From a virus, in the IMG/VR virus record IMGVR_UViG_3300050821_023536, positions 1-32,731 of that record: DNA of 32,731 nucleotides. One strand, written 5' to 3'. This document shows positions 9,029 to 32,731 of the stretch, piece by piece (within the stretch, counting starts at the first letter, position 1; every line of letters begins with the position of its first letter). The notes beneath the pieces are model-generated. The model had not been told where the DNA came from, searched no databases, and saw only the letters and a list, made by a program, of their open reading frames with translations. Position numbers and translations under genes: made by a program.

Positions 9029-9056
9029 AGTATATCCGAACGGTTTAGCGCGTCAC
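9029..9056 (-). promoter_or_regulatory. Probable promoter of the repressor gene
   Basis: Read on the minus strand, GTGACG (9056-9051) and TATACT (9034-9029) are separated by 16 bases. This would start a transcript near 9022, about 13 bases before the repressor ATG. It overlaps the last codons of the 1107-residue tail gene, so the repressor need not depend on late transcription. Confidence 0.5.
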
Positions 9057-12000
9057 GCTCGGCGGCTCGATCGGGAGCGGCTGTGTTCGCCAGCTAAACA
9101 GCACCGCGTGATCGATGGCCCAGAGGTTGACGCCCGGCAGCGCCAGGAGCAGCGTCGCCCACCATTCGCGATCCCATGGGCAGCCCTGGTTGTCCCACGC
9201 GATCAGGTAGCGGACGTCGTTCTTGGCCCACGAGAGCACGGTGAAGGCGAACCGCATCGTCGCCAGCGCGTTGTCGAAGTTGAAGTACTCCGAGCCCCAG
9301 CTCAACCCCTCGGCCTTGAACCGGTTGAGTCCGCTGCCCGATTTCGCGTGCCACTGCGACGGCAGGTTGACCGCGTAATTCAGGCGGCCGCCTTGCGGGA
9401 ACGGCAGGTCGTCCGTGTAGTAGCAGCCCGAGAAATTCACGTCGAAGGGCCACAGCACCTCGAACTGCGCGCCGGAAACCGCTGCAAGCACCGCGGAAAT
9501 AATCGTTGACACATGGGAGTAGATCCGTCCCGCGAGGAAATCCGCATCGGCCGAGCTGTTGATGGTCGGATCGTCATCCTGCGTGTAAAAGGACCACAGC
9601 GCGCGGCTGAGAGCAGTCAGCGCGGCGGCCGCCTGATTGGCGTCGTAGTAGGCCATCCCTCCGCCGGAGACCGTTCCCGCGGCCGCCGGCGATCCGCCTG
9701 GCCAGGTGGATCCGTCCACCGTGAAATGCGTGGCATCGATCACTGAAATAGATTGCGTACCATCTATAAGGCCGGTGCCGGCGAGAATCGAAGTCCAGCC
9801 GGTCGAGAACCCGTGAGCGCTCGCCGTCTCGACTTCGATCAGGCCGCCCGAATCCGCGAAGGCGGCGATGCCCAGCGACATCGTCTCAGAAAAGAACCAG
9901 TGCCCGACCTCGCCGAACTGGAGCCACGGCGTCAGCCCGGCGCCGTTCAGGATACTAGACGCCTGGACGTAACAGTAAGCCAGGTACGCGGTCACCGTTG
10001 AAGGGTTGAACGCGCACTGGCTGGTTTGCAGGTCGATGAAGACCGCGTCGCCGGCGTCCGGCGTGTAGCCGCCGGAGTTGGCGATCTCGACGCCCAGCGT
10101 GTAGTGATTCGCGTCGACTACCACCAGATACCACTCGCCGGTTTGGGTCGAGTTCGCGAAATGCGCGCTGTTTCCAGTGATATAGCCGTGGCCGGTCTGC
10201 TGAACCGTCCCACCACTCACCATCTCGACGTAGCCCGAGCCCCAGCTCCCGAACTCGGTATCGGTCAGGACCGTGGTTCCGTCCGCGAACCGCTGCGACC
10301 AGGCTCCCGCCGACGTGTTTGCATCCGGCGGCGCGAGCAGCTCCTGGCTGAACGCGACCGTCATGGTCTGGGCGGCCGCTTGCATCAGCGTGGCCATGTC
10401 GGTCAAGTAATCCTTGAAAGCTCGGTTCAGAGGCGACGTCTGCGTCGCGTCGACGCCCCACACGCCCTCCTGTCCGCCAACCGGCGCTCCGGCCACCATC
10501 ACCCCGATATCGCCGGCGACCGCCAGCGATCCAGCCGCCCCCGTGGCCAGCGATACGTCGAAAGTGAATCCGTTGATGGGGCTCAGCACCGTGACGGTGA
10601 GCTGGCCGGCGGTCGCCGTAGGCGCCGCGCAGACGCCCACAAACAACCCGTTGATCGCGTCGACGATGCGCTGAGCCAGCGTCGTCAGCGTATCCGCCGG
10701 ATATACCTGCACGCCGAAGACGGTCCCGCCGATCCCGATCCCGGACGGATTTCCGCCCTTCGTCGTTGCGCCGCTGATGGTGGTTCCCGAGTTGGGAAAA
10801 GTGCCGCCCGCCGTGACCCAGACGACGTCCCCGCTGTTGAACGTGCCCGAGAGCGTAACCGTGGCGTGGTGGAAACTCCCGCCATTGCGGATCCGTTTCA
10901 GCGCGAAGAAAACGCCGGCATAGAAATCGAGGTCGCCGGTGAAGCCCATCCGCTGCTGGATCCACAGCAGCCGCTCCGGAGCGATTTGATACGTCTGGTT
11001 GGTGTCGAAGTCGGCCGCGGCATTGACGGTCGAATAGGTGACGGCCGGGTCCTGCACGTCGCTGAGCACGGCCGCTTGCAGGAAATCGAAGTAGCACGTG
11101 GCGGAGCTGGACAGCGTCAGCACCACCGTATGCGTGCCGGCGGCAACGCTCGAGGCGAGCAGCCGCCGCGCCGGCAGCGGGCCTCCGGAGCTTAGCGCGC
11201 AATCGAGCGGCGTCTGCGACACGCTGTCCAAAGTGACGTCGAAGGTGCCGAAGCCAGCGCCGAGAACAGTACCTAAATAGAGTGAGTGCATCGACTGGCA
11301 GGAATACTCGATCGTCACCGAGTCACCGGAATGCGCCGAGGCCCGCGCGAAGCCTTCGAAGTAAGCGCCGACCTGCTGCGCCCAGCCGCTGCCGGAGAAC
11401 GACGTCCACCAGTCGCGGCTCGATACCACCACGCTGCCGGGCCCGGCCACACTCAGCGGAGTGTTCGAGTCCGGGTCGGTGAGGGTCCAGCTCGAGAAGA
11501 CGTAGGAGAATTCTTTCGCGGTGAACGGAACCAGCGTGGGATTGACTCCCCCACTGTCAATCGGGAGAGATGGCGCGAGAGTCAGCCAGCACTGCCGCAG
11601 GCTGGCCAGTCCCATCGCCGAGAAATCCAGCGTGACGTGGAAGGAGGTGGGATCGACGCCGCCCGTAAGCTTGGCCAGCGCCGGCGAGATGGTCGTGTTG
11701 CCGGCCGAGTTGTACATCGACAGCAGCTCGATCGTGTTGCCGTCCTGGCCAGGTTGGGTGCACGTGATTGTAATCATCGCGCCGGAGCTGCTGGCCGTCA
11801 GCGGAATCACCGAGGACGTGGCCGCATTGATTGCCGCCGCCATCGCGGTCGCGATCGCGCCCAGCGTCTCGCCCGTGGTGATGGCCCCGAAAACGTTGGA
11901 GTCGAAGACCACGTTGCCGAGGTAGACGATCTGCACCCGGTCTCCGCTGGTAGGCGTGCCGGCGAGAGTGAATGTCGCGCTCGCGGCAACCTCGCCGGTG

Positions 12001-12368
12001 GTGCTGGTGATGTTGAGCGGCGTCGTCCCCGGCGTGCCGGAGCTGGTGATCCAGCTCAGCATGCCCCACGGCACGCTTTGCGATTTGGAGGAGCCCGGGT
12101 AGAACCCGTTGGTGATGGCCAGGTCGAAATCGACGACGACGCCGGTCAGGTTGAAGTCGGGGAGATAGCGTGTGGTGAAGAGGTGTCCGTAATTGTCGTC
12201 GGCGTCGAACAGCACCACCACTACGAAGTCGGCGATATCACTAAAGACGCCGCTAACGGTGAATCCCGACGAGCTCGCCGAATGCAGCGAAGCCGCGCAG
12301 CCGCGCCGGTCGAATCCGCGCAGGTAGAGCGTGCGGTGCGGCTCGAACTTCGAAATCGCCTCGGGCAA
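9045..12368 (-). CDS. Large tail protein with glycoside-hydrolase-like TIM barrel
   Basis: A 1107-residue protein from TTG 12368, five bases after GAGG. The N-terminal ~120 residues are beta-rich. Two related repeats of the 'ATxTLxGTxxSGDxV...TLxxxAxxxxxAIN' type, a phage surface Ig-like pattern, lie at about 128-240 and 500-620. The C-terminal third has TIM-barrel strands: VAFSQELLAPPD (~672-683), WLQFGEVGHWFF (815-826), GMAYYD (904-909) and YLIAWDNQ. E676 and E819 are candidate catalytic acids for a glycan hydrolase. FCCH-like inserts (QTGHGYITGNSAHF, ASAHGFSTGWTSIL, each ending in 'DAxHxT') interrupt the barrel. It probably degrades or binds host surface glycan as a tail component. Last gene of the late region before the repressor. 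Confidence 0.78.
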   Translation of the reverse strand: MPEAISKFEPHRTLYLRGFDRRGCAASLHSASSSGFTVSGVFSDIADFVVVVLFDADDNYGHLFTTRYLPDFNLTGVVVDFDLAITNGFYPGSSKSQSVPWGMLSWITSSGTPGTTPLNITSTTGEVAASATFTLAGTPTSGDRVQIVYLGNVVFDSNVFGAITTGETLGAIATAMAAAINAATSSVIPLTASSSGAMITITCTQPGQDGNTIELLSMYNSAGNTTISPALAKLTGGVDPTSFHVTLDFSAMGLASLRQCWLTLAPSLPIDSGGVNPTLVPFTAKEFSYVFSSWTLTDPDSNTPLSVAGPGSVVVSSRDWWTSFSGSGWAQQVGAYFEGFARASAHSGDSVTIEYSCQSMHSLYLGTVLGAGFGTFDVTLDSVSQTPLDCALSSGGPLPARRLLASSVAAGTHTVVLTLSSSATCYFDFLQAAVLSDVQDPAVTYSTVNAAADFDTNQTYQIAPERLLWIQQRMGFTGDLDFYAGVFFALKRIRNGGSFHHATVTLSGTFNSGDVVWVTAGGTFPNSGTTISGATTKGGNPSGIGIGGTVFGVQVYPADTLTTLAQRIVDAINGLFVGVCAAPTATAGQLTVTVLSPINGFTFDVSLATGAAGSLAVAGDIGVMVAGAPVGGQEGVWGVDATQTSPLNRAFKDYLTDMATLMQAAAQTMTVAFSQELLAPPDANTSAGAWSQRFADGTTVLTDTEFGSWGSGYVEMVSGGTVQQTGHGYITGNSAHFANSTQTGEWYLVVVDANHYTLGVEIANSGGYTPDAGDAVFIDLQTSQCAFNPSTVTAYLAYCYVQASSILNGAGLTPWLQFGEVGHWFFSETMSLGIAAFADSGGLIEVETASAHGFSTGWTSILAGTGLIDGTQSISVIDATHFTVDGSTWPGGSPAAAGTVSGGGMAYYDANQAAAALTALSRALWSFYTQDDDPTINSSADADFLAGRIYSHVSTIISAVLAAVSGAQFEVLWPFDVNFSGCYYTDDLPFPQGGRLNYAVNLPSQWHAKSGSGLNRFKAEGLSWGSEYFNFDNALATMRFAFTVLSWAKNDVRYLIAWDNQGCPWDREWWATLLLALPGVNLWAIDHAVLFSWRTQPLPIEPPSVTR

Positions 12369-13710: not shown

Positions 13711-14376
13711 TTACCGAAGTCCCTCGATTCTCTTCCTCGCGATTTCGAAATAACGCCGCTCCTTCTCGAAGCCGACGAAGCGCCGGCCCGATCGGACGCA
13801 TGCCACCGCGGTCGTTCCCGAGCCCATGCAGCAGTCGAGAACCAGCGCGCCGGACCGAGTGTAGGTCCGAATCAGGTACTCGAACAGCGCGACCGGCTTC
13901 TGCGTCGGATGGAGCTTCTCCGGATCGCGGCCGAAATCGAGCACGCTGGCTGGATAGCCGGTGACCCGCTGTACAGTCGGCTTTTCGTGAGTCCCATAAT
14001 TCGCCGATTGCCGGTTGGATCGGAGTCTCCGAGCGCACGGCCTCAGTCCCTGCGGGAAATAGCGCGGCAGCCGCGGGCAGAACACGAGGATCGACTCATG
14101 CTTGCGCATCGGCATCCTCTTCGCGTTCAGATGGCCGGTGGCGTAGTCCTTGCGCCAGATCCATTCGTGCCGGAACCAGCGCGCGTTGGACATTACCAGC
14201 GCGCTCGTGAACGGCTGGCAGGCCGTAAGCACTACCGCCGCGCCCGGCTTGAGCACCCGCCGCCACGACTCCCATAACGACGCCAGGTCAATGCGCGAGT
14301 CCCATGAATTGTCGGTGCAGCCGTAAGGCAGATCGCAGAGCACCAGGTCGATGCTCCGGTCCTCCAACCGCCGCAT
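13711..14376 (-). CDS. DNA adenine methyltransferase, beta class, with a poly-C-disrupted start
   Basis: A 221-residue read from ATG 14376. Motif IV is DLPYG at about 15-19 (a DPPY variant), and the SAM-binding motif is LDCCMGSGTTAVACVRSG at about 180-197, the beta order typical of N6-adenine methyltransferases. The conserved block LHPTQKPVALFEYLIR precedes motif I. The normal N-terminus LHRGDCLAGMRRLEDRSIDL is only partly in this ORF. The missing residues lie in the same frame just upstream but have no start codon. An ATG at 14434, directly after the hub gene's TAA, would join it if the C run at 14419-14428 were nine long instead of ten (240 residues). So the full gene is off by one base, and the internal ATG may give a shorter, possibly inactive product. 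Confidence 0.88.
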   Translation of the reverse strand: MRRLEDRSIDLVLCDLPYGCTDNSWDSRIDLASLWESWRRVLKPGAAVVLTACQPFTSALVMSNARWFRHEWIWRKDYATGHLNAKRMPMRKHESILVFCPRLPRYFPQGLRPCARRLRSNRQSANYGTHEKPTVQRVTGYPASVLDFGRDPEKLHPTQKPVALFEYLIRTYTRSGALVLDCCMGSGTTAVACVRSGRRFVGFEKERRYFEIARKRIEGLR

Positions 14377-22442: not shown

Positions 22443-25400
22443 TTAAGTGATCAGGTTGGGCTGGCCCTGCATCGACGCGCTGCTGGTGACGCGGCCGTTC
22501 CCAGCGGCCCATGCCGACGCCACCTGGTCCTGAATCACGTCCGGCGTGATCACGTTGCCGGCCATGAAACTATTCAGGTCCTGGCCGCCGACGTTCAGCG
22601 ACAGGCTCATCGGCTGCGACGCGCCCGGATTGACGGTGCTGGAAACGCCGCCCAGCACCGGCACGTTCCCGCTGTAGCTATACGCATTGCCGTACTGATA
22701 GGTGGCCTGCTGGTAGAGCTTGCCGCCCTGCTCGGCCAGCGATCCGGCCTGCGGCGTGGTGGCCGACAGCGGCATCTTCTGCCCGGTGCCGGCTGCGTAC
22801 AGCCCGAGCATCTGCCGCACCTCCGGCGAATGCACCGCGACGGTGACGTTGCCGCCATACTTCGACTGCGCGATCTGCGCGATCTGCTGCGCCATCTGGT
22901 TATCGATGTTCAGGCCGTAGATCTGCTTGCAGAGCTGCTTGGCCTTCTGCTCCGGACTCACGTCGCCGATGGCCATCTCGATTCCGCCCGCGAGAATTCC
23001 GGCTGCGGCGCCGACCGCCGCGCCCACAGGACCTCCGTACTGTTCGCCGATCAGCGCCCCGCCGGCGCCCGATTCGATGATTCCGGCCGCGGTGCCGCGC
23101 CGGGAGCCAAAGAGTCCCGCTTCGCCCAGCATCATGCCGGAGATGCCGGCCAGCGGCGAGCTCGCGACGCTGCTGGCGATCGTGCCGGGGCTGTTGCCGA
23201 CGCCCGCGGTCCATCCCTGCGCGCCGTGATAACCGATGGCGCTGCCGAGCCCTGCCCAGCCGCCTTTCAGCGCGCCCAGGAGTCCTGCGGGTCCCGTGCC
23301 TCCGCCGCCGCCTCCGAAGATCCCCGCGAATGGGTTGCGCTGCGCGCCTCCTCCGGACCCGGACCCACCGCCGCCGCCGAAAAGTCCCGCGAAGAGGTTG
23401 CGACCCGGCATCGACGCAGTGGTGCCGGTCTGAAACACCGGACCAGCGAAGCCCGACGTTCCACCCGGCGCGCCGAAGCTGTCGCCGCCGAAACTGGGAT
23501 TGAAGATGTTGGTTCCCCAACCGCCGCTTGAGTAACCGCCTCCGCCGCCGCTCCATCCGCCGCCCGCATAGCCGCCTCCCGATGGAATGTTCACAGACGG
23601 GATGGAGACGTTGGGAACCGCAATACCCCCCACGGAGGAAGGCACGGGCACGCTCGCGCCCATGGTTGCGGCGGTCACCTGCACATGGGCATATAGCGCC
23701 GCTGTGTTTTGCTGGAGCGCCAGCAAATGCGCTCGATCGACTTCCAGCTTGGCTTGCTCATCCGACTTCTTGTTTCCGCCGGGTACAAAAATGTCGCCCA
23801 CCATCGAGCCGAATTCTTTGCTGATTTGCTTGTCGGTGGCCTTAACGAGGTACTCCTGGAAGGAGCCTTTCTTGTTGGTGATAGCGGCGTCAAACAACCC
23901 GGAGGCGACGCCGGCGATTTCCTTGTGCTGCTGCTCGGCGATCCGCTGTTGATCCTCCGCCACGGCCTTTTGCGCTTCGTTCAGTTTGTCTTGAGCCTCC
24001 TTCATCGAGTTGAAGTACAAGTCCGAAAGTGCCAATTGGTTCGACTGCCTCAACTCGTTCAAAGAGTTTTCGTGCTCAGTGTCCATCTTGCCGACGAGCT
24101 CGCCGTTGTCGAGAGCGTGCTGGCGCTCCGCCGCATACAATTCATTGCTGTACTGGACTTTGATCTGATATTCCTGATCGAGCGCATCGGCTCTGTTTGG
24201 CGCTCCACCGACACCTGACAGCTTTGCGGAACCCAGTGCGGACTGTTCCCGCCCCCGAATTGCGGCAAGCTGCGACTGGTAGTAATCGTTCTGTTGGGCT
24301 TGCCCGGCGGTGAGAAAATCGCCAATGCCCGGACCATTGCCACTCGCACCAACGGGCAGCATGTTGAACTGGGTGTCTACGTTTCCAAGTAGGTTGCCCG
24401 AGGAAAACGGGTTGACCGCTCCGCGGCGGGTCAATGGCACGTTCGCCATGCGGCCAGTTATGGTGGCCGCCTTATCGCTGGCCCCTTTCATCGATTCTTT
24501 CAGGGCGTCGATTTGGCTCGTTAAGGAGGCCGCTGCCTTGGCTGCTTCCGAGTATTTGTTGATGTCCGCATGTCCGAGAGAGCCATACTCGACCATGTTC
24601 TCTTTTGCCGTTTTGAGTTGAGTTTCAAGGCTCGATAGCGGGGTGGCGTTTCTCGCATCGATTGCCGCCTTTGCGGACAAAAACGACGTGTCTAGATTGG
24701 GGGCGCCCGGAGCGCCGTGTGGAGCGGATACGTTCCATCCCTGCTGTGGGCCATACGTGACGCCCATGGCTGCATTCACGAAGGAGGTAGATCTGGCGTC
24801 GGCCGCGTTGTAGCCCCGATAAAGCTTGCCAAGCAGCCCTTCCCCGCCTTCGGATTCAAACTTGATGTCTACTTTGAGCTGCTCCCCAAGCATGCCCGCT
24901 AGTTTTTCTTTGGCGAAATCGGCCGCCACACCCACGGTGTGCAGCATCTTTGCCCAGTCGTCGGCCTTTCTCGACGTGTCATCCATGCCGAGCCCCATCG
25001 ATTTGAGCAACCCTGTGGTCTCTTCGTAGTCGCCCAACACCGGCTCGATGGACTTTGCGAGTCTGGCACCGAAGAGTTCGCCCGCCGTGGCATTCCGCAG
25101 AGTGATGTCCTGCATTTGCGACAGCTTTTCGATCGCCGCCGGGATGATTTTCCCTACGTCCCCACCCATGTCCGTAACGGATAGACCAAGCCTTCCAAGG
25201 GCCGCCGTCATGAATTGAGCTTTGGCTCCGCCTTCATCCAGCGTGGTGGCCATCTGCGTGCCAGCGCGAGCCATCGAGTTCATGTCGACGCCGGCGATTT
25301 TACCGGCTGCCATTAACAGCTCCAGCTTTCCTGTAGCGATGCCGGTTTGAGCCGACAGATTTACGATTCCTTCTCCGGCTTCACCGCCGGCCTTGGCCAT

Positions 25401-25940
25401 CTCATACAGAGCCGCGCCAACGCCCAAGCCGGCGACGGTGACGCCGGCAAACACCGCGCCAGCAGGCCCCATCTTTTCCCATAGGCTGGTCGCAGCATTT
25501 CCGGCTGATCGCATCGGAGATTCGATGAACTTGGAGATGTTCTCGCCGAATTCCTTGAACTTGCCGCCGCTCTCGGAGGCCTCCGCCTTCGAGATCATCT
25601 GCTCGAACGCCGCAGTGTTGCGCCGGATCGCCTCTTCGCTGCCGGCGAGCCGCTTGTTGTACTCGTCGCGCTGAGCGATCAGCCGCTGGACCTCGGTGAT
25701 CTCCTTGCCATAGCTGGCCGCGCGCATCTCGTTCGATCGCACCAGGCGAAGGTTGCTGTCCTGCGCCTTGTCGTTCATGCGCAGCATCAGGTTCGAAACG
25801 CGCTCGAAGGAGTCTTGCAGCCGCTGGTTCGCGCCGGTGCTGCCCTTCTCGAAGCCCTCGACCGCAGTGTTCATCTGCGCCAGAGCGCCGACGACACTTC
25901 GCGGGTCGATCTCGAAGCTGACTTCTTCCAGGCCGGGCAT
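22443..25940 (-). CDS. Tail tape measure protein
   Basis: A 1165-residue protein. Its N-terminal ~130 residues are a coiled coil (FERVSNLMLRMNDKAQDSNL, then EVQRLIAQRDEYNKRL). Hydrophobic, membrane-like helices follow, e.g. AGAVFAGVTVAGLGVGAALY (~165-185), then long helices. A Gly-rich linker near 830-960 (GGGYAGGGWSGGGGGYSSGG, FGGGGGSGSGGG) precedes a C-terminal hydrophobic region (GAAVGAAAGILAGG) and a helical tail-tip end. Length and position, directly after the chaperones and a small tail protein, fit a tape measure. At about 0.15 nm per residue it would set a tail of about 175 nm, long for a siphophage. No peptidase motif was recognised. Confidence 0.9.
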   Translation of the reverse strand: MPGLEEVSFEIDPRSVVGALAQMNTAVEGFEKGSTGANQRLQDSFERVSNLMLRMNDKAQDSNLRLVRSNEMRAASYGKEITEVQRLIAQRDEYNKRLAGSEEAIRRNTAAFEQMISKAEASESGGKFKEFGENISKFIESPMRSAGNAATSLWEKMGPAGAVFAGVTVAGLGVGAALYEMAKAGGEAGEGIVNLSAQTGIATGKLELLMAAGKIAGVDMNSMARAGTQMATTLDEGGAKAQFMTAALGRLGLSVTDMGGDVGKIIPAAIEKLSQMQDITLRNATAGELFGARLAKSIEPVLGDYEETTGLLKSMGLGMDDTSRKADDWAKMLHTVGVAADFAKEKLAGMLGEQLKVDIKFESEGGEGLLGKLYRGYNAADARSTSFVNAAMGVTYGPQQGWNVSAPHGAPGAPNLDTSFLSAKAAIDARNATPLSSLETQLKTAKENMVEYGSLGHADINKYSEAAKAAASLTSQIDALKESMKGASDKAATITGRMANVPLTRRGAVNPFSSGNLLGNVDTQFNMLPVGASGNGPGIGDFLTAGQAQQNDYYQSQLAAIRGREQSALGSAKLSGVGGAPNRADALDQEYQIKVQYSNELYAAERQHALDNGELVGKMDTEHENSLNELRQSNQLALSDLYFNSMKEAQDKLNEAQKAVAEDQQRIAEQQHKEIAGVASGLFDAAITNKKGSFQEYLVKATDKQISKEFGSMVGDIFVPGGNKKSDEQAKLEVDRAHLLALQQNTAALYAHVQVTAATMGASVPVPSSVGGIAVPNVSIPSVNIPSGGGYAGGGWSGGGGGYSSGGWGTNIFNPSFGGDSFGAPGGTSGFAGPVFQTGTTASMPGRNLFAGLFGGGGGSGSGGGAQRNPFAGIFGGGGGGTGPAGLLGALKGGWAGLGSAIGYHGAQGWTAGVGNSPGTIASSVASSPLAGISGMMLGEAGLFGSRRGTAAGIIESGAGGALIGEQYGGPVGAAVGAAAGILAGGIEMAIGDVSPEQKAKQLCKQIYGLNIDNQMAQQIAQIAQSKYGGNVTVAVHSPEVRQMLGLYAAGTGQKMPLSATTPQAGSLAEQGGKLYQQATYQYGNAYSYSGNVPVLGGVSSTVNPGASQPMSLSLNVGGQDLNSFMAGNVITPDVIQDQVASAWAAGNGRVTSSASMQGQPNLIT

Positions 25941-26758: not shown

Positions 26759-27834
26759 TTAGCGGCGCTGGTTGCGCAGCGCCATTTCCCGCTCCATCTC
26801 TTTGCGCTGTTCGTCGGCGCGGCGATCGCGCTCTTCCTTGAGCACGCGCAGCCCGCGAGCTTCCTCCGCGGTGACATCGTTCCAGCGCATGTTGAAGCGA
26901 TCGACGCTGAAATCGAGCTCGATCAGCCGCGTCAGCAGCTTGCCGGCGCGCGAATGTTCGCGAGCTTCTTCCAGGTCCTCTAACGGGCAGGCTTCGCACC
27001 GCGTCACCGAAAATCCCAGCTCGCCGCAACCGGGGCAGCGGCCCGGAGCCCACACGTTGGGCGTGTCCCACCGGCGGCCGCAGTGGATGCACTTGACCGT
27101 CGACGATGCCGGGCACTGGTCCGGACCGGCTTCGCCGCCGAAGCACATCTCGGAGCGGCGCAGCTCGCAGTAGACCAGCAGCCGGAGCGGCAGCGGCCAA
27201 GGCCACCACTCCGGCCTTAGGAGTTTGGGCCCAGCTCGATTTGCGGATCCAGTTCGGCGACGGCCTGCGCCAGCTCGCCCGCGACGGCGAACTTGTGATG
27301 CGCCGGAACGTCGTAGCCGGCGGCGTAGCCTTCGGCCGACAGCTTCACCGCGTCGTACAGCTTCACCGAAGCGTCGGCCCGCCAGGCCAGCTCCTCGCGG
27401 CCGTGCCGCAGGTCGGTGGAGGCGAAATTGGTTCGGCCGAAGTCGAACATCTCGTCTTCCATTGGCTCGCGCAGCGTGTGGGAGACATCGCCGAAGGGCG
27501 TGCGCAGCGTGATTTTGTAGCCTTCCGCCGGGCGATCGCACGATACGACCTCGGCGGAGGTGAACTTGAGGATCGCCGCGCGGCACTCGGCCGCGCTGAA
27601 GGCGTCGCCCTCTTGATCGATTCGGAGCTCCGCGAACAGCTTCAGGTCGGCTTCCGGATTCGCCACCAGCTCGGACTGCCACTTGCCGCGCCCGATTGAG
27701 TTGCGGATAGTCTTCTGCCGGTTGATCCGCTCAATCATCTGAGCCGACGTGGGCAAACGCAGCACGGCGGACTTGGGAGGGTGCCGATTGGTGAACTTGA
27801 ACCCTCCCGACTGTGGAACCTCGCCGTACAGCAT
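26759..27834 (-). CDS. Tail assembly chaperone, -1 frameshift fusion (GT-type) with zinc ribbon
   Basis: Predicted 358-residue product: 204 codons of the upstream chaperone, then -1 slip at CCCAAAC (27229-27223), then 154 residues of the downstream ORF to 26759. The downstream ORF begins LLRPEWWPWPLPLRLLVYCE and has a zinc ribbon: CIHC, CPGC and CEAC give six cysteines (C45, C48, C63, C66, C76, C79 of that part). Its C-terminal half is a charged helix. It lacks an in-frame ATG/GTG/TTG near the upstream stop; the first is ATG 27148, 25 codons in. In lambda, G and GT load tape measure and tail tube; the order here (tube, small ORF, chaperones, tape measure) is the same. Confidence 0.8.
27217..27834 (-). 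CDS. Tail assembly chaperone, unshifted (G-type) product
   Basis: A 205-residue protein from ATG 27834, whose A overlaps the preceding TAA. The N-terminus is beta/charged (MLYGEVPQSGGFKFTNRHPP), then SAVLRLPTSAQMIERINRQK, a middle with LKFTSAEVVSCDRP and YKITLRTPFGDVSHTLREPM, and a helical C-terminus (YDVPAHHKFAVAGELAQAVA). The pattern 'PxSxxxxRINRQKxIxxxIGRG' resembles phage tail chaperones that precede tape measure genes. It ends ELGPNS just after the slippery heptamer. A longer frame upstream to 28074 runs through the 60-residue gene and is not used. Confidence 0.82.
   Translation of the reverse strand: MLYGEVPQSGGFKFTNRHPPKSAVLRLPTSAQMIERINRQKTIRNSIGRGKWQSELVANPEADLKLFAELRIDQEGDAFSAAECRAAILKFTSAEVVSCDRPAEGYKITLRTPFGDVSHTLREPMEDEMFDFGRTNFASTDLRHGREELAWRADASVKLYDAVKLSAEGYAAGYDVPAHHKFAVAGELAQAVAELDPQIELGPNS
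27223..27229 (-). promoter_or_regulatory. Programmed -1 frameshift site
   Basis: Coding strand G GGC CCA AAC TCC TAA. The C CCA AAC heptamer is in frame (X XXY YYZ), with an overlapping G GGC CCA candidate. A hairpin follows: AAGGCC (27218-27213) pairs with GGCCTT (27204-27199) around an 8-base loop, extendable to 8 bp with 27220/27197 and 27219/27198. The spacer from the heptamer is 2-4 bases, short but workable. The zero-frame stop lies within the stem. Confidence 0.8.
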
Positions 27835-28016
27835 TACGAGTTGGCGGGCCCGCTGATCGGAACGACGTTGGAGGCCGGCGCCGGCGCGGCCTTGGCCTTT
27901 TCGAGCGCGATCAGATCTTCGATGGCGGTCAAGCCGCGCTCGAAGAGCCCTTCGCCCACCGCGACGGCCGCTTGGCCGGCCGCCGAATTCAGGAACGTGA
28001 GAAGTTGCTGTAGCAT
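27834..28016 (-). CDS. Small hypothetical protein after the tail tube gene
   Basis: A 60-residue protein from ATG 28016, with AGGAG seven bases upstream. N-terminal hydrophobic helix (MLQQLLTFLNSAAGQAAVAV), a helical middle (GLFERGLTAIEDLIALEKAK) and an Ala/Pro/Ser-rich end. It overlaps the start of the chaperone gene (TAATG). Its place after the tube gene is usual for a tube-associated or chaperone-related peptide. Function not recognised. Confidence 0.7.
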   Translation of the reverse strand: MLQQLLTFLNSAAGQAAVAVGEGLFERGLTAIEDLIALEKAKAAPAPASNVVPISGPANS

Positions 28017-28046: not shown

Positions 28047-29090
28047 CTACTGACAAATGGATGGCAGTACGCACTTGGAGGTGATCGAAATCACTCCGTT
28101 GGACGAGTTGTACATGGGGTCGGCGGTCACATGCACCGCGACCAGGCCTTCTTCGGCCTTGTTCTGGATGACCTTGTAGCTCAACTGTTCCCAGGTCCAG
28201 GTGATCTTGTCGTTGGTGTCGTAGGTCATGCCGATCACGGCGGTGCCCTGCGTCTGATTCACCAGCGCGTTAAATTCTGGTGAATTATGCTGTAATAACG
28301 CGTCGAATTCGAAGGTCGGAACGCGAGTGCCGATCGGGATCCAGTCCCGCACCTGCGCGGCAAGTCCGCTGTCCAGCACTTGCGTGCCCGAGCCAGGCCT
28401 ATAGCCGAGCTGGGCCAGCAGGTTATTTTTCCAGCCCATCTGGACGCTCAAGATGCGTCCGCTGGAAGCGGCCGTGATGTAATTGGTGCCGTTGATCGTC
28501 ACCGTGGCGGCGCCCGACAGCATGTTCAATTCGTTCAGGACGCCCGGCGCCGCGACGCCGCTGGGCATGGTGACGTTGCCGGAGCCGATCCAGCTCGCCG
28601 TGCATTTGTGGGTGGCGCGGCCGGCGCCGTATTTGATGACGCTCATCACCTCTTCGAGCGCGCAGCCGACGTAGGCATAATCGGCGGCACTCCCGCCGCC
28701 TTCGGCGATCTGCTCGACGACGGTGAAATAGGGCGGCTCGATGGCAGTGCCGGGGTTGATCGGCACGATGGTATAGGTGTAGGGCGCTCCCGAGCCGCTG
28801 ACGGTCACATTACCCAGCGCGAAGGCCCACGCCCAAGTGCTCCACTCCACCGATCCGTACTTGTCGAGCGATGCCCGCGGATCGAAGACCGTGGCGAACT
28901 GTTGGGTCGCGAATTCGTGGCCCTTACCGATTTCCGGCGCGTTGCTCTCGGTCCCGAAGTTGGGCGTCGCCAGGTCGGAGTTGAGCTGCGAGAACTGTAG
29001 GAAGCCGCCGCCTCCCGCGTAGAGTGTGGCGATCGCGGACTGCTTGCCCTGACTGAGCAGCGCAACCTTTTGCTGAATTCTTGCCGGCAT
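28047..29090 (-). CDS. Major tail tube protein
   Basis: A 347-residue protein with AGGAG upstream of ATG 29090. The N-terminus (MPARIQQKVALLSQGKQSAI, EIGKGHEFATQQFA) and the beta-barrel core (VEWSTWAWAFALGNVTVSG, ASWIGSGNVTM) resemble tail tube proteins of siphophages. The late segment RDWIPIGTRVPTFEFDALLQ and the C-terminal strand region VAVHVTADPMYNSSNGVIS complete the fold. Order (terminator, tube, chaperones, tape measure) supports the call. It is somewhat long for a tube protein, so an extra surface domain near residues 180-240 is possible. Confidence 0.82.
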   Translation of the reverse strand: MPARIQQKVALLSQGKQSAIATLYAGGGGFLQFSQLNSDLATPNFGTESNAPEIGKGHEFATQQFATVFDPRASLDKYGSVEWSTWAWAFALGNVTVSGSGAPYTYTIVPINPGTAIEPPYFTVVEQIAEGGGSAADYAYVGCALEEVMSVIKYGAGRATHKCTASWIGSGNVTMPSGVAAPGVLNELNMLSGAATVTINGTNYITAASSGRILSVQMGWKNNLLAQLGYRPGSGTQVLDSGLAAQVRDWIPIGTRVPTFEFDALLQHNSPEFNALVNQTQGTAVIGMTYDTNDKITWTWEQLSYKVIQNKAEEGLVAVHVTADPMYNSSNGVISITSKCVLPSICQ

Positions 29091-29105: not shown

Positions 29106-29582
29106 CTATTGATCTCCGATTTGCGGAAACGCGAAGTGCGCGCAGAATCGGTCCATGCCTTCTAAGTCCATGTCGTGCTCGACCGATGGATTATCCGGGA
29201 TTTCCCATTTCCCCGGCACCAGGTGCAGATAGCGGATGTTGAGCGTCGTGCCGTTGACCGGCGAATTGACAATCAGCCACCACAACTCCTCATAGGCGAC
29301 CGGCGCGACTTCGCCAGCCTGGTTGGCCATGCGGATATAGATGGCGATGCTGTCCTTGATCAGCGTGGCTCCGTCGAAATTGCCGCCCTTCGCGCCCATC
29401 CACGCGACCAGGATGGACGGCGCGGTCATCTGTTGGATGGCGCGTGCCAGGCTCTGATCTTCGCCGAAGACGTAGTGATGCGCATAGATGTTCGTCTGGC
29501 TGCCGTTCATCGCGGCAACCAGCAGCTCGATCGACTGGAGCGCCGTCACCACGGCGTCGACCAGCGGCTGCGGATTGAGCAT
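29106..29582 (-). CDS. Tail terminator-like protein
   Basis: A 158-residue protein from ATG 29582 (no obvious ribosome-binding site, eight bases after the preceding stop). An N-terminal helix (LVDAVVTALQSIELLVAAMN), a beta strand with PSILVAWMG, then YIRMANQAGEVAPVAYEELW and the strand region LNIRYLHLVPGKWEIPDNPS fit the alpha/beta fold of lambda gpU-like terminators. Size (about 130-160) and location just before the tube gene support it. The longer upstream frame to 30413 overlaps the 441-residue gene and is not real. Confidence 0.72.
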   Translation of the reverse strand: MLNPQPLVDAVVTALQSIELLVAAMNGSQTNIYAHHYVFGEDQSLARAIQQMTAPSILVAWMGAKGGNFDGATLIKDSIAIYIRMANQAGEVAPVAYEELWWLIVNSPVNGTTLNIRYLHLVPGKWEIPDNPSVEHDMDLEGMDRFCAHFAFPQIGDQ

Positions 29583-29590
29583 TAGGCGGA

Positions 29591-30916
29591 TTACGCGTTG
29601 ACTTGCACGCCGTTGGCGCCGGTCAGGATCCCGGTTGCGGCGATGCAGCTCGCCGTGACGGTTTGGTTTCCGCTGCCGTTGTTGGTGATCGCCAGCAGCA
29701 CCGAAAGCTGGGCCTGCGCTCCGTCGAGCGAGGGCGTGTAAGTCCCCACCGTCTGGGCGTGCGTGCTGTCGTTCGTCGGCGCCTGCACTTCGGAGCCGAA
29801 CCCGATCGCGGAAGGCGTGAACGCGATGCCATGCCAGACCACCGGCGAGCTTCCGGTGGTCTTGACTTGATCGCTTACCAGCACGCGCAGCGAATTGTAC
29901 CGGCCCTGAATCAGCGAGGGCGCGATGACCGCGGAACTCGCAACGGTATACAAAGACCCGACCAGCGTTTCCGGGTGGATCACAACGAAAATGGGCTCGC
30001 CGAGCCCGGTCAAAAGCGTGATGATCGAGCCAAGGTTCGTGGTGGTGAGGTTGCCTTGGCCACCGGTGCCGATGGGCGCGTTCGTAATAAAGCTCGCATA
30101 TAGATTGAGGATCTTGCCGTCGAGCGAGCTCGCGAGTTGGAAAGCCAGCCGCCAGGCCAGCTCCCGAATCAGCGCCGGGGTGGCGATGACGACGTCCACC
30201 GGGACGGCTTCGGTCGCCGACAGCGTGCTCGCGCTGCCGATGGACGTGTTCCCCGAGGAAGTCGCTGAAAGGGCGCCGGTGGGAGTAACGTAAACCGTTC
30301 CGCCGAACAGCCCCGCCGCGCCGGTGGCTTTGTAGACGCACCGCAGCACGATGGAGGCGTCCAGAGTGTACTGCGCCACCAGCGGAGCCAGCGCATTTAC
30401 GAGAGTGGTGCACTGCGCGATGGTCGGCGTGCCGCTCGCCGCCAACGGCCGGGCGGTCCCGTAGATGAACTCGGGCGCAATGTCGGCGACCAGGGGCTCC
30501 TGCCCCAGCGCAAGCAGCGATCCGAGGGACGGAGCACTACCGAAGGTTCCATTGAGGCGCACTTGCACGGTCGCATCGCCGGTGGCGCCTCCGAGGGCGG
30601 CCGTTCCGGCGGTCGCTCCGATGCTGTTGAACCCGAGTGCGACGGGAACGACTAGGCTGGCGACGCCGATGAGTGTGTTCGGGCCCGAAGCGTTGCTGAT
30701 GTTGGAGGTGGCCTTGAGCGCCGTGTTGTCCCAGTAGACCGGGGCGCCGTTCGTGAAGGCGCTGGAATCCTTGGCGATGGTGACGATGCCGTCGACAGTG
30801 ATCTCGACCGGAGCTCCGGATGCGGCCGCATTCGTGGCCACGCCGAAGATATCGCCGGAAAGGACGCCGGCTCCAGTGGCGACGGCGGCCGGCGCCGTGA
30901 CGGTAAGGATACTCAT
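29591..30916 (-). CDS. DUF2190 domain fused to a capsid-like C-terminal part
   Basis: A 441-residue protein. Residues ~15-125 (VLSGDIFGVATNAAASGAPV, EITVDGIVTIAKDSSAFTNG, GATGDATVQVRLNGTFG) are a DUF2190-like capsid decoration domain. The same domain occurs in the 251-residue gene two genes upstream. The rest (AWRLAFQLASSLDGKILNLY, then FVVIHPETLVGSLYTVASSA, RYNSLRVLVSDQVK, VVWHGIAFTPSAIGFGSEVQ) has helices and strands like a capsid subunit. It lies between head-tail joining and terminator genes. It may be a second coat, a decoration or a connector; function uncertain. Confidence 0.7.
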   Translation of the reverse strand: MSILTVTAPAAVATGAGVLSGDIFGVATNAAASGAPVEITVDGIVTIAKDSSAFTNGAPVYWDNTALKATSNISNASGPNTLIGVASLVVPVALGFNSIGATAGTAALGGATGDATVQVRLNGTFGSAPSLGSLLALGQEPLVADIAPEFIYGTARPLAASGTPTIAQCTTLVNALAPLVAQYTLDASIVLRCVYKATGAAGLFGGTVYVTPTGALSATSSGNTSIGSASTLSATEAVPVDVVIATPALIRELAWRLAFQLASSLDGKILNLYASFITNAPIGTGGQGNLTTTNLGSIITLLTGLGEPIFVVIHPETLVGSLYTVASSAVIAPSLIQGRYNSLRVLVSDQVKTTGSSPVVWHGIAFTPSAIGFGSEVQAPTNDSTHAQTVGTYTPSLDGAQAQLSVLLAITNNGSGNQTVTASCIAATGILTGANGVQVNA

Positions 30917-31272: not shown

Positions 31273-32028
31273 TTACGAGTTGCCGAGGTAGTAGAAGAGG
31301 TCGATCTCGACGACGCCCGCGGTCAGCGCGTCGGCCGACACCGTGACGGTGATCAGGCCGGCGGCCGTCAGCTTCACCGGAAGGATGAAGGTGCCGAGGC
31401 CGGTGACGAAATCGCCCGCCGCAAAACTGGTGATGGCGGTCGCGGCCAACAGCGCAGAGGCCGAAGAGCCCGCCGAAGTGCCCGCCGCGATCGAAGCGCC
31501 CGCGCCCACAACGGTGGTGGTCGCGTTGAACACCGTCCCGACGATGATCGCCTTGGCCGGGATCGAGGTGTTGATCAGCGGCGTGATGAGCCCGATGGCT
31601 CCGCCGTCGTTGGCGAAGTTGTAGGTCGCGTGAGCCCTCTGCAATCCGGAGCCGACCCCGAACTTGGCATTGAGCCGGACGCGCACGGTGGCATCGCCCG
31701 AGGCTCCGCCGAGTGCGTTGGTGCCGCTGGCCTGGACCAGCTCGGCTACGCCGATGTGGACGTTCATGCCCGTGCCGGCGGCGGCCTGTTTCGACGTAGC
31801 CACCAGGGCCACGTTGTCCCAGAAGATCTGCGCGCCTTCGACGAAGGTGCTGGTGTCCTTGGCCAGGTCGTAGACGCCCTCGACCTCGATTTCAACCGCC
31901 GCGCCCGACAACGCCGTGGTGGCGGCGATGCCGAAGATGAGGCCGCCGATCAGGCAGCCTCCGCCGGAGGTGACGTTGTACGGCGCCGTGACGGAGAGGG
32001 TTACCCCTTTGTGTACGTAATTCTGCAT
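31273..32028 (-). CDS. DUF2190-family head decoration protein
   Basis: A 251-residue protein with GAGG before ATG 32028. N-terminus QNYVHKGVTLSVTAPYNVTS, then LIGGLIFGIAATTALSGAAV, EIEVEGVYDLAKDTSTFVEG and GASGDATVRVRLNAKFG. Residues ~15-125 are DUF2190, found in capsid cement proteins. The C-terminal half (IVGTVFNATTTVVGAGASIA, FILPVKLTAAGLITVTVSAD) is a repeat-like beta domain, possibly a surface fold. Placed directly after the capsid gene, it probably stabilises the head. Confidence 0.78.
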   Translation of the reverse strand: MQNYVHKGVTLSVTAPYNVTSGGGCLIGGLIFGIAATTALSGAAVEIEVEGVYDLAKDTSTFVEGAQIFWDNVALVATSKQAAAGTGMNVHIGVAELVQASGTNALGGASGDATVRVRLNAKFGVGSGLQRAHATYNFANDGGAIGLITPLINTSIPAKAIIVGTVFNATTTVVGAGASIAAGTSAGSSASALLAATAITSFAAGDFVTGLGTFILPVKLTAAGLITVTVSADALTAGVVEIDLFYYLGNS

Positions 32029-32097: not shown

Positions 32098-32731
32098 TTA
32101 CGCCCCGGCGTTCTTCTGCATGCCGCGGTAGTCGATTGCCTGCGCCGCGAAATCCAGCCGAGCCTTGATCTCAACGCCGTCCACGTCGAAGCCCTGGCGG
32201 GTCTCGATGTAGACGCCTTCCTGGCCTTCCAGGTAGCAATATTCCAGGGTGTCGATCTGAGCCGGATCCGCGAACAGATACCAGGCCGTCTCGCTATTGG
32301 CGTCGAGCCGAGGCTCGACCACCGGCACCAGGCCGCGCACCCACTCCGGCACCACTTTGGTGAGGTCGGACGAGGCGATGTTGGCGGGATAGACCGCTTG
32401 CAACATGTAATTTTCGAGAGCCGCCGGAACCGCGATGAAGCGCGGCACCAGGTTCAAATAGGTGCCTTGCGGCCCGGTCTGCAAGCGCAGGTACTGCCGG
32501 CAGGTGGCCAGCGCGCCGAGCGCGTTGGTGATGATGCTGCTGCTGGAGCCGGTTTGCAGGTTGTCATGCGCGGCGTTGAACAACGCGACGTTGTCCTGCT
32601 GCATCACCTGGTTATTGATGACGACGTTCCAAACCGTGTTGGACTCGAGCTGCGCCGCGGCCACGCCCAGCACCGCGGGAACGCGGGTGAAGGCTTGCAG
32701 GTCGTCGTTGATGATCACCTTGCGGGTCAGC
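32098..32731 (-). CDS. Prohead protease/major capsid fusion protein, C-terminal part (cut by window edge)
   Basis: About 210 residues are visible; the frame continues past 32730 (LTRKVIINDDLQAF...), so the gene is incomplete. Hallmarks are FNAAHDNLQTG, LRLQTGPQGTYLNLVPRFIA, VVEPRLDANSETAWYLFADP, LEYCYLEGQEGVYIETRQGF and DVDGVEIKARLDFAAQAIDY. From memory, this matches the C-terminal capsid half of the fused ClpP-like protease/capsid proteins found in many prophages of Gram-negatives. The protease half would lie beyond the right edge. It is the first virion gene in this window in transcription order. Confidence 0.9.
   Translation of the reverse strand, partial: LTRKVIINDDLQAFTRVPAVLGVAAAQLESNTVWNVVINNQVMQQDNVALFNAAHDNLQTGSSSSIITNALGALATCRQYLRLQTGPQGTYLNLVPRFIAVPAALENYMLQAVYPANIASSDLTKVVPEWVRGLVPVVEPRLDANSETAWYLFADPAQIDTLEYCYLEGQEGVYIETRQGFDVDGVEIKARLDFAAQAIDYRGMQKNAGA

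Follow-up and report, generated by a model that had tools for sequence, protein, structure and literature searches.

In a phage of soil-dwelling Acidobacteriota, a single gene very probably gives rise to two tail-building proteins because a fraction of the ribosomes shift back by one base at a defined position. In the window, by which we mean the whole stretch of DNA analysed, a metagenome-assembled virus record of 32.7 kb, we hold with high confidence that ribosomes undergo programmed −1 frameshifting at C CCA AAC, so that both a short protein, G, and a longer G-T fusion are made. Frameshifting of this kind is well known for the tail chaperones of other phages. The mechanism is therefore already known, and what is new is the protein family, the turnover of slip sites at one position, and a branch carrying C CCG GAA at that position.

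Slippery heptamer and reading frames in the window

An in-frame C CCA AAC had been reported at the end of the chaperone gene by the first-pass annotation, and it was confirmed here: the minus-strand ORF 27834-27217 ends in GAG CTG GGC CCA AAC TCC TAA. Reading in the −1 frame from AAC gives CTC CTA AGG CCG GAG TGG TGG..., which stays open to 26759. The predicted junction joins ...GPN to LLRPEWW... and the predicted fusion has 204 + 154 = 358 residues, so that the frames, the junction and the fusion length proposed earlier were all reproduced. The elements involved are as follows.

27217..27834, minus strand: G, a putative tail assembly chaperone; zero-frame ORF of 205 codons, with homologues and an AlphaFold2 model
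27223..27229, minus strand: slippery heptamer C CCA AAC, conserved in relatives; phase X XXY YYZ, with TCC TAA next
27226..27232, minus strand: G GGC CCA, overlapping C CCA AAC; unique to the window phage and probably incidental
26759..27223, minus strand: T, which extends G in the −1 frame by 154 codons counted from the shift; stop at 26761-26759; with an AlphaFold2 model

In-phase XXXYYYZ strings number 10 in the 7,709 codons of the window's 19 main ORFs, and only one of the ten, the C CCA AAC at the end of G, has AAA or TTT as its Y-triplet. The codon CCA makes up 7.4% of the proline codons in the main ORFs. As for the overlapping G GGC CCA, it is present as had been stated; it was found in one of 36 close relatives, namely the window phage itself. 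The earlier remark that T lacks a start near the junction holds as far as an ATG at 27148, 25 codons inside T, and that codon is Leu in relatives; no independent T start is conserved among them.

Conservation and replacement of the heptamer among relatives

Searched directly, neither G nor T nor the tail tube candidate of the window had a match in IMG/VR, GTDB genomes or INPHARED. The capsid fragment (32101-32730), with matches in 80 contigs, was the only route to relatives. In these contigs, tblastn found homologues of G and T with 43-53% identity (about 35% in the wider G set), and profiles of these homologues then recovered 73 further IMG/VR loci and four loci in metagenome-assembled genomes (MAGs) of Bryobacterales, Solibacteraceae and Acidobacteriia. 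Matches occurred in 39 of 200 genomes from the family of the Solibacteraceae MAG, compared with 4 of 396 genomes drawn across the phylum. Based on this enrichment and on the MAG loci, the hosts are probably Bryobacterales-type Acidobacteriota. The Bryobacterales provirus group described in PMC11924767, where frameshifting is unmentioned, may represent the same phages.

From the IMG/VR contigs and the Bryobacterales/Solibacteraceae genomes, 99 distinct junctions were obtained, comprising a close branch N (n = 36), a remote branch S (n = 27) and a branch X (n = 36), and T lies in the −1 relation to G in 96 of the 99, drawn from independent samples and MAGs. All three branches are represented among the six G homologues of a single Solibacteraceae MAG (G003, the genome of L157), in which several coexisting prophages of the window's phage family therefore seem to be present.

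In branch N, every one of the 36 distinct junctions has an in-phase C CCA AAC and a T in the −1 frame. The 36 G genes of this branch have 39 amino-acid-invariant columns (Met and Trp excluded), among which only two are free of synonymous codons, namely the CCA and AAC of the heptamer, while all four Pro synonyms occur just six columns upstream of the heptamer's Pro. Thus both the site and the frame relation are present and under selection. Two relatives with altered spacing are informative as well. The zero-frame stop of L008 comes 49 nt past the heptamer start, where 10 nt is usual, and T homology nevertheless starts at the heptamer; in L103 a 54-nt insert separates the heptamer from T with the −1 frame preserved, which lengthens the predicted fusion by 18 residues. 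Together, the frozen codons, L008 and L103 set frameshifting apart from both a sequencing error and stop-start coupling. The ends of the L103 insert (L103:4954-5007) are inverted repeats, GCGCACA...TGTGCGC.

Branch S, whose G proteins share 21-29% identity with that of the window, shows replacement of the site. Its 27 distinct junctions carry C CCA AAC (17), A AAT TTT (3), G GGA AAC (2), A AAA AAC (1, in L193) or G GGT TTC (1), that is, five different canonical heptamers at one spot, and L187 and L192 have A AGT TTT, which is not a canonical heptamer. Conservation of the heptamer, which had been suggested as a check, thus extends to the whole close branch, and to most of the remoter one in the form of other canonical heptamers. 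These swaps are the strongest single argument for the site, because a chance heptamer would not receive such replacements. T is in the −1 frame at 24 of the 27 S junctions; among the exceptions, L178 and L048 look broken, and L194 is too remote for the T profile to reach. L171 has a displaced stop like that of L008, and its T homology also begins at the heptamer.

In the 36 distinct sequences of branch X, G ends in GAC CCG GAA TAG or a near-identical string (with a TGA stop in two sequences, T CCG in L041, and TCG in L070 and L075) and T stays in the −1 frame. A canonical heptamer is absent, and exact C CCG GAA is found in 33 of the 36; an example of such a junction is L057:11285-11340, to which 35 others are similar. 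Both codons of this site are frozen: the Glu codon is GAA in 36/36, though GAG prevails at almost every other Glu column, and the Pro codon is CCG in 34/34. A GC-rich stem lies a few bases past the site, with 91% of cells paired in the 21 aligned members, in which no covariation above shuffles was found. On balance, we lean towards the view that the family has remade its slip site several times in one place and that branch X slips at the non-canonical C CCG GAA, where tRNA-Glu would have to re-pair with GGA by a G-U pair in the middle position. Reinitiation at an ATA that overlaps the G stop in this branch (ATG in L049 and L067) is the rival explanation for T there; the hairpin lying directly past this ATA or ATG makes it less likely.

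Downstream stem-loop, proposed mechanism and alternatives

A stimulatory RNA structure downstream is usual, though not universal, at −1 frameshift sites. Two overlapping stems were considered in the window.

27180..27216, minus strand: stem-loop, the likely stimulator; 15 bp (27216-27202 with 27194-27180) and a 7-nt loop
27199..27218, minus strand: the 6-bp hairpin of the first-pass annotation (stem 27218-27213/27204-27199; −9.6 kcal/mol), overlapping the longer stem

The 6-bp stem can form, but the conserved structure is the 15-bp stem, which is the window's minimum-energy structure (−29 kcal/mol, z −3.45 versus shuffles). For the structure tests, junctions were aligned without gaps because RNAalifold gave no information on the MAFFT-gapped ones. 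Across 30 close relatives, 89% of cells were paired in the long-stem layout, against 40-54% in slid controls, whereas the 6-bp hairpin had 57% and was rejected as a conserved element. No covariation above shuffles was found for the stem in these 30 close relatives of branch N. In branch S, 87.5% of cells were paired and the covariation score exceeded all 500 shuffles; the main signal was a G-C to C-G swap in which two codons changed synonymously, Gly GGG/GGC together with Ser TCC/TCG, and on the G tree two separate clades show this compensatory swap. Taken together, covariation in S and pairing without it in N make a structured stimulator well supported in branch S and likely in branch N, as judged from these alignments.

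Under the proposed mechanism, most ribosomes would end at TAA and release the 205-aa G, and a minority would pause at the stem-loop, which begins 6 nt downstream of the heptamer. Both tRNAs would then move back by one base, from CCA to CCC and from AAC to AAA, and the slipped ribosomes would continue into T and complete the 358-aa G-T fusion. By analogy with lambda, the tape measure protein would be coated by G, with the T portion recruiting tail tube subunits. The slippage event itself, its efficiency and the chaperone roles are what we infer. A lambda G/GT-type frameshift was also the main interpretation of the first-pass annotation, which is supported by the conserved heptamer, the −1 relation and the lack of a conserved T start.

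It appears improbable that T is instead a gene of its own with a non-standard or internal start, reached by reinitiation or coupling past the G stop, and that the heptamer is incidental. Candidate starts do exist, such as the stop-overlapping ATA or ATG of branch X, the ATG at 27148 of the window and a TTG 38-41 nt past the G stop in most close relatives. In branches N and S, however, no conserved start precedes the conserved P..W..LR.L residues, which begin right at the junction, and L008 and L171 have a shifted stop but an unshifted T start. Independent translation would also leave the frozen CCA AAC codons and the canonical-heptamer swaps unexplained, and the stem-loop at the would-be start would hamper initiation.

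Slippage of RNA polymerase, producing a fusion mRNA, is a still more remote explanation. A few relatives do have runs on which it could act, e.g. A AAA AAC in L193, but the usual site, CCCAAAC, contains no run longer than three bases, and the phase and hairpin spacing match tandem tRNA slippage. Least probable of all, and refuted in substance, is that the frame change reflects a sequencing error or a decayed gene: although the record is metagenome-assembled and L048 and L178 look broken, the repetition of the −1 relation across nearly all independent junctions is incompatible with it. Programmed ribosomal frameshifting is therefore the reading retained below.

Gene order, protein families and known systems

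The surroundings of G and T resemble a tail gene cluster, with the following features.

28047..29090, minus strand: tail tube candidate of 347 aa, by position; conserved in relatives and placed like the tube annotated in RcOceanus
22443..25940, minus strand: tape measure candidate of 1165 aa, by position and length
27026..27091, minus strand: zinc-ribbon-like CxxC...CxxC segment in T (residues 45-66), from Pfam zinc-ribbon and rubredoxin-like matches of relatives

The order tube candidate, G, T and tape measure candidate recurs in relatives, in agreement with the lambda GT-like placement proposed earlier, with the tube and tape measure identities being mainly positional; the L030 homologue of the tape measure candidate resembles the RcGTA tape measure at E 4.7e-6, under the curated cut-off. 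Since G and T sit between a tube candidate and a tape-measure-like gene, as in lambda and RcOceanus, we infer a chaperone role for them from position and architecture. The chaperone identity given by the first-pass annotation fits in these two respects, but no known chaperone was matched by family or by fold. Searches of Pfam, PHROGs and NCBIfam gave no chaperone match for G or T, only the zinc-ribbon matches of T; the G profile had no credible match among PDB sequences; and G did not match RcOceanus gp14 or Mu gp41 in a profile comparison. The AlphaFold2 models of G and T are confident (mean pLDDT 89.5 each), and with Foldseek and VIA-align they gave no convincing known-fold match; the best viral match of the G model was the nameless A0A6M2VCE7 (E 0.007, TM 0.54), and Mu FS-gp41 turned up at E 0.1 only. 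Low similarity of tail assembly chaperones between phages is known (PMC5009743). The zinc-ribbon or rubredoxin-like segment is found in T of branches N and X and is absent from S, and judging by these sequences it is a domain gained or lost within the part made only by frameshifting.

Several other genes of the window stand out. A 60-aa ORF (27834-28016) between the tube candidate and G overlaps the start of G as TAATG, and no homologue of it was found in any fetched relative. Two Phage_cement_2 (head decoration) genes, 29591-30916 and 31273-32028, flank the head-closure gene, and the 441-aa Phage_cement_2 protein has a long additional C-terminal part. At 29106-29590, a conserved protein of ~158 aa lies within the longer mechanical ORF 29106-30413 (residues 277-435), with its true start near 29590. 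In the 1107-aa ORF 9045-12368, the N-terminal part weakly matches a tail sheath (phrog_165), and a non-contractile tail sheath protein is matched below threshold through its TIM barrel. Of two N6/N4 DNA methyltransferase genes (467-2062 and 13711-14376), the 531-aa product has matches split between both ends, as though a domain were inserted.

These results extend tail-chaperone frameshifting to a family of Acidobacteriota phages and prophages. Current family libraries do not recognise its chaperones, so that an annotator would otherwise list two orphan genes or overlook T. One position in this family also carries a naturally occurring set of slippery sites, among them the unproven C CCG GAA, so that slippage rules can be tested in homologous sequence.

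Compared with lambda, whose slippery site is G GGA AAG, the window has C CCA AAC, a zinc-ribbon-like segment in T and a strong stem-loop downstream. The likeness to lambda G/GT lies in two frameshift-joined ORFs between the tail tube and tape measure genes (PMC5009743), and a sequence or fold relation between the two pairs was not detected. RcOceanus (MW677520) has a homologue of the capsid with 43% identity and the same order of tube, chaperone, frameshifted chaperone and tape measure, with gp14/gp15 annotated as a joined CDS, whereas its chaperones are not alignable with G of the window by profile comparison. For branch X, the closest parallel is the still hypothetical 'threetwotwo' motif that PRFect proposed from annotated phage chaperones, with CCCGGAA as its commonest form and G-U re-pairing as its explanation (PMC10885494). 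That form is identical to the branch X heptamer, but was derived from joined gene annotations in other phages, while the X sites sit in homologues of phages with canonical sites and additionally show frozen codons and a hairpin. If branch X does slip there, the motif hypothesised by PRFect would be a naturally selected slippery site, with the homologous canonical sites as built-in controls.
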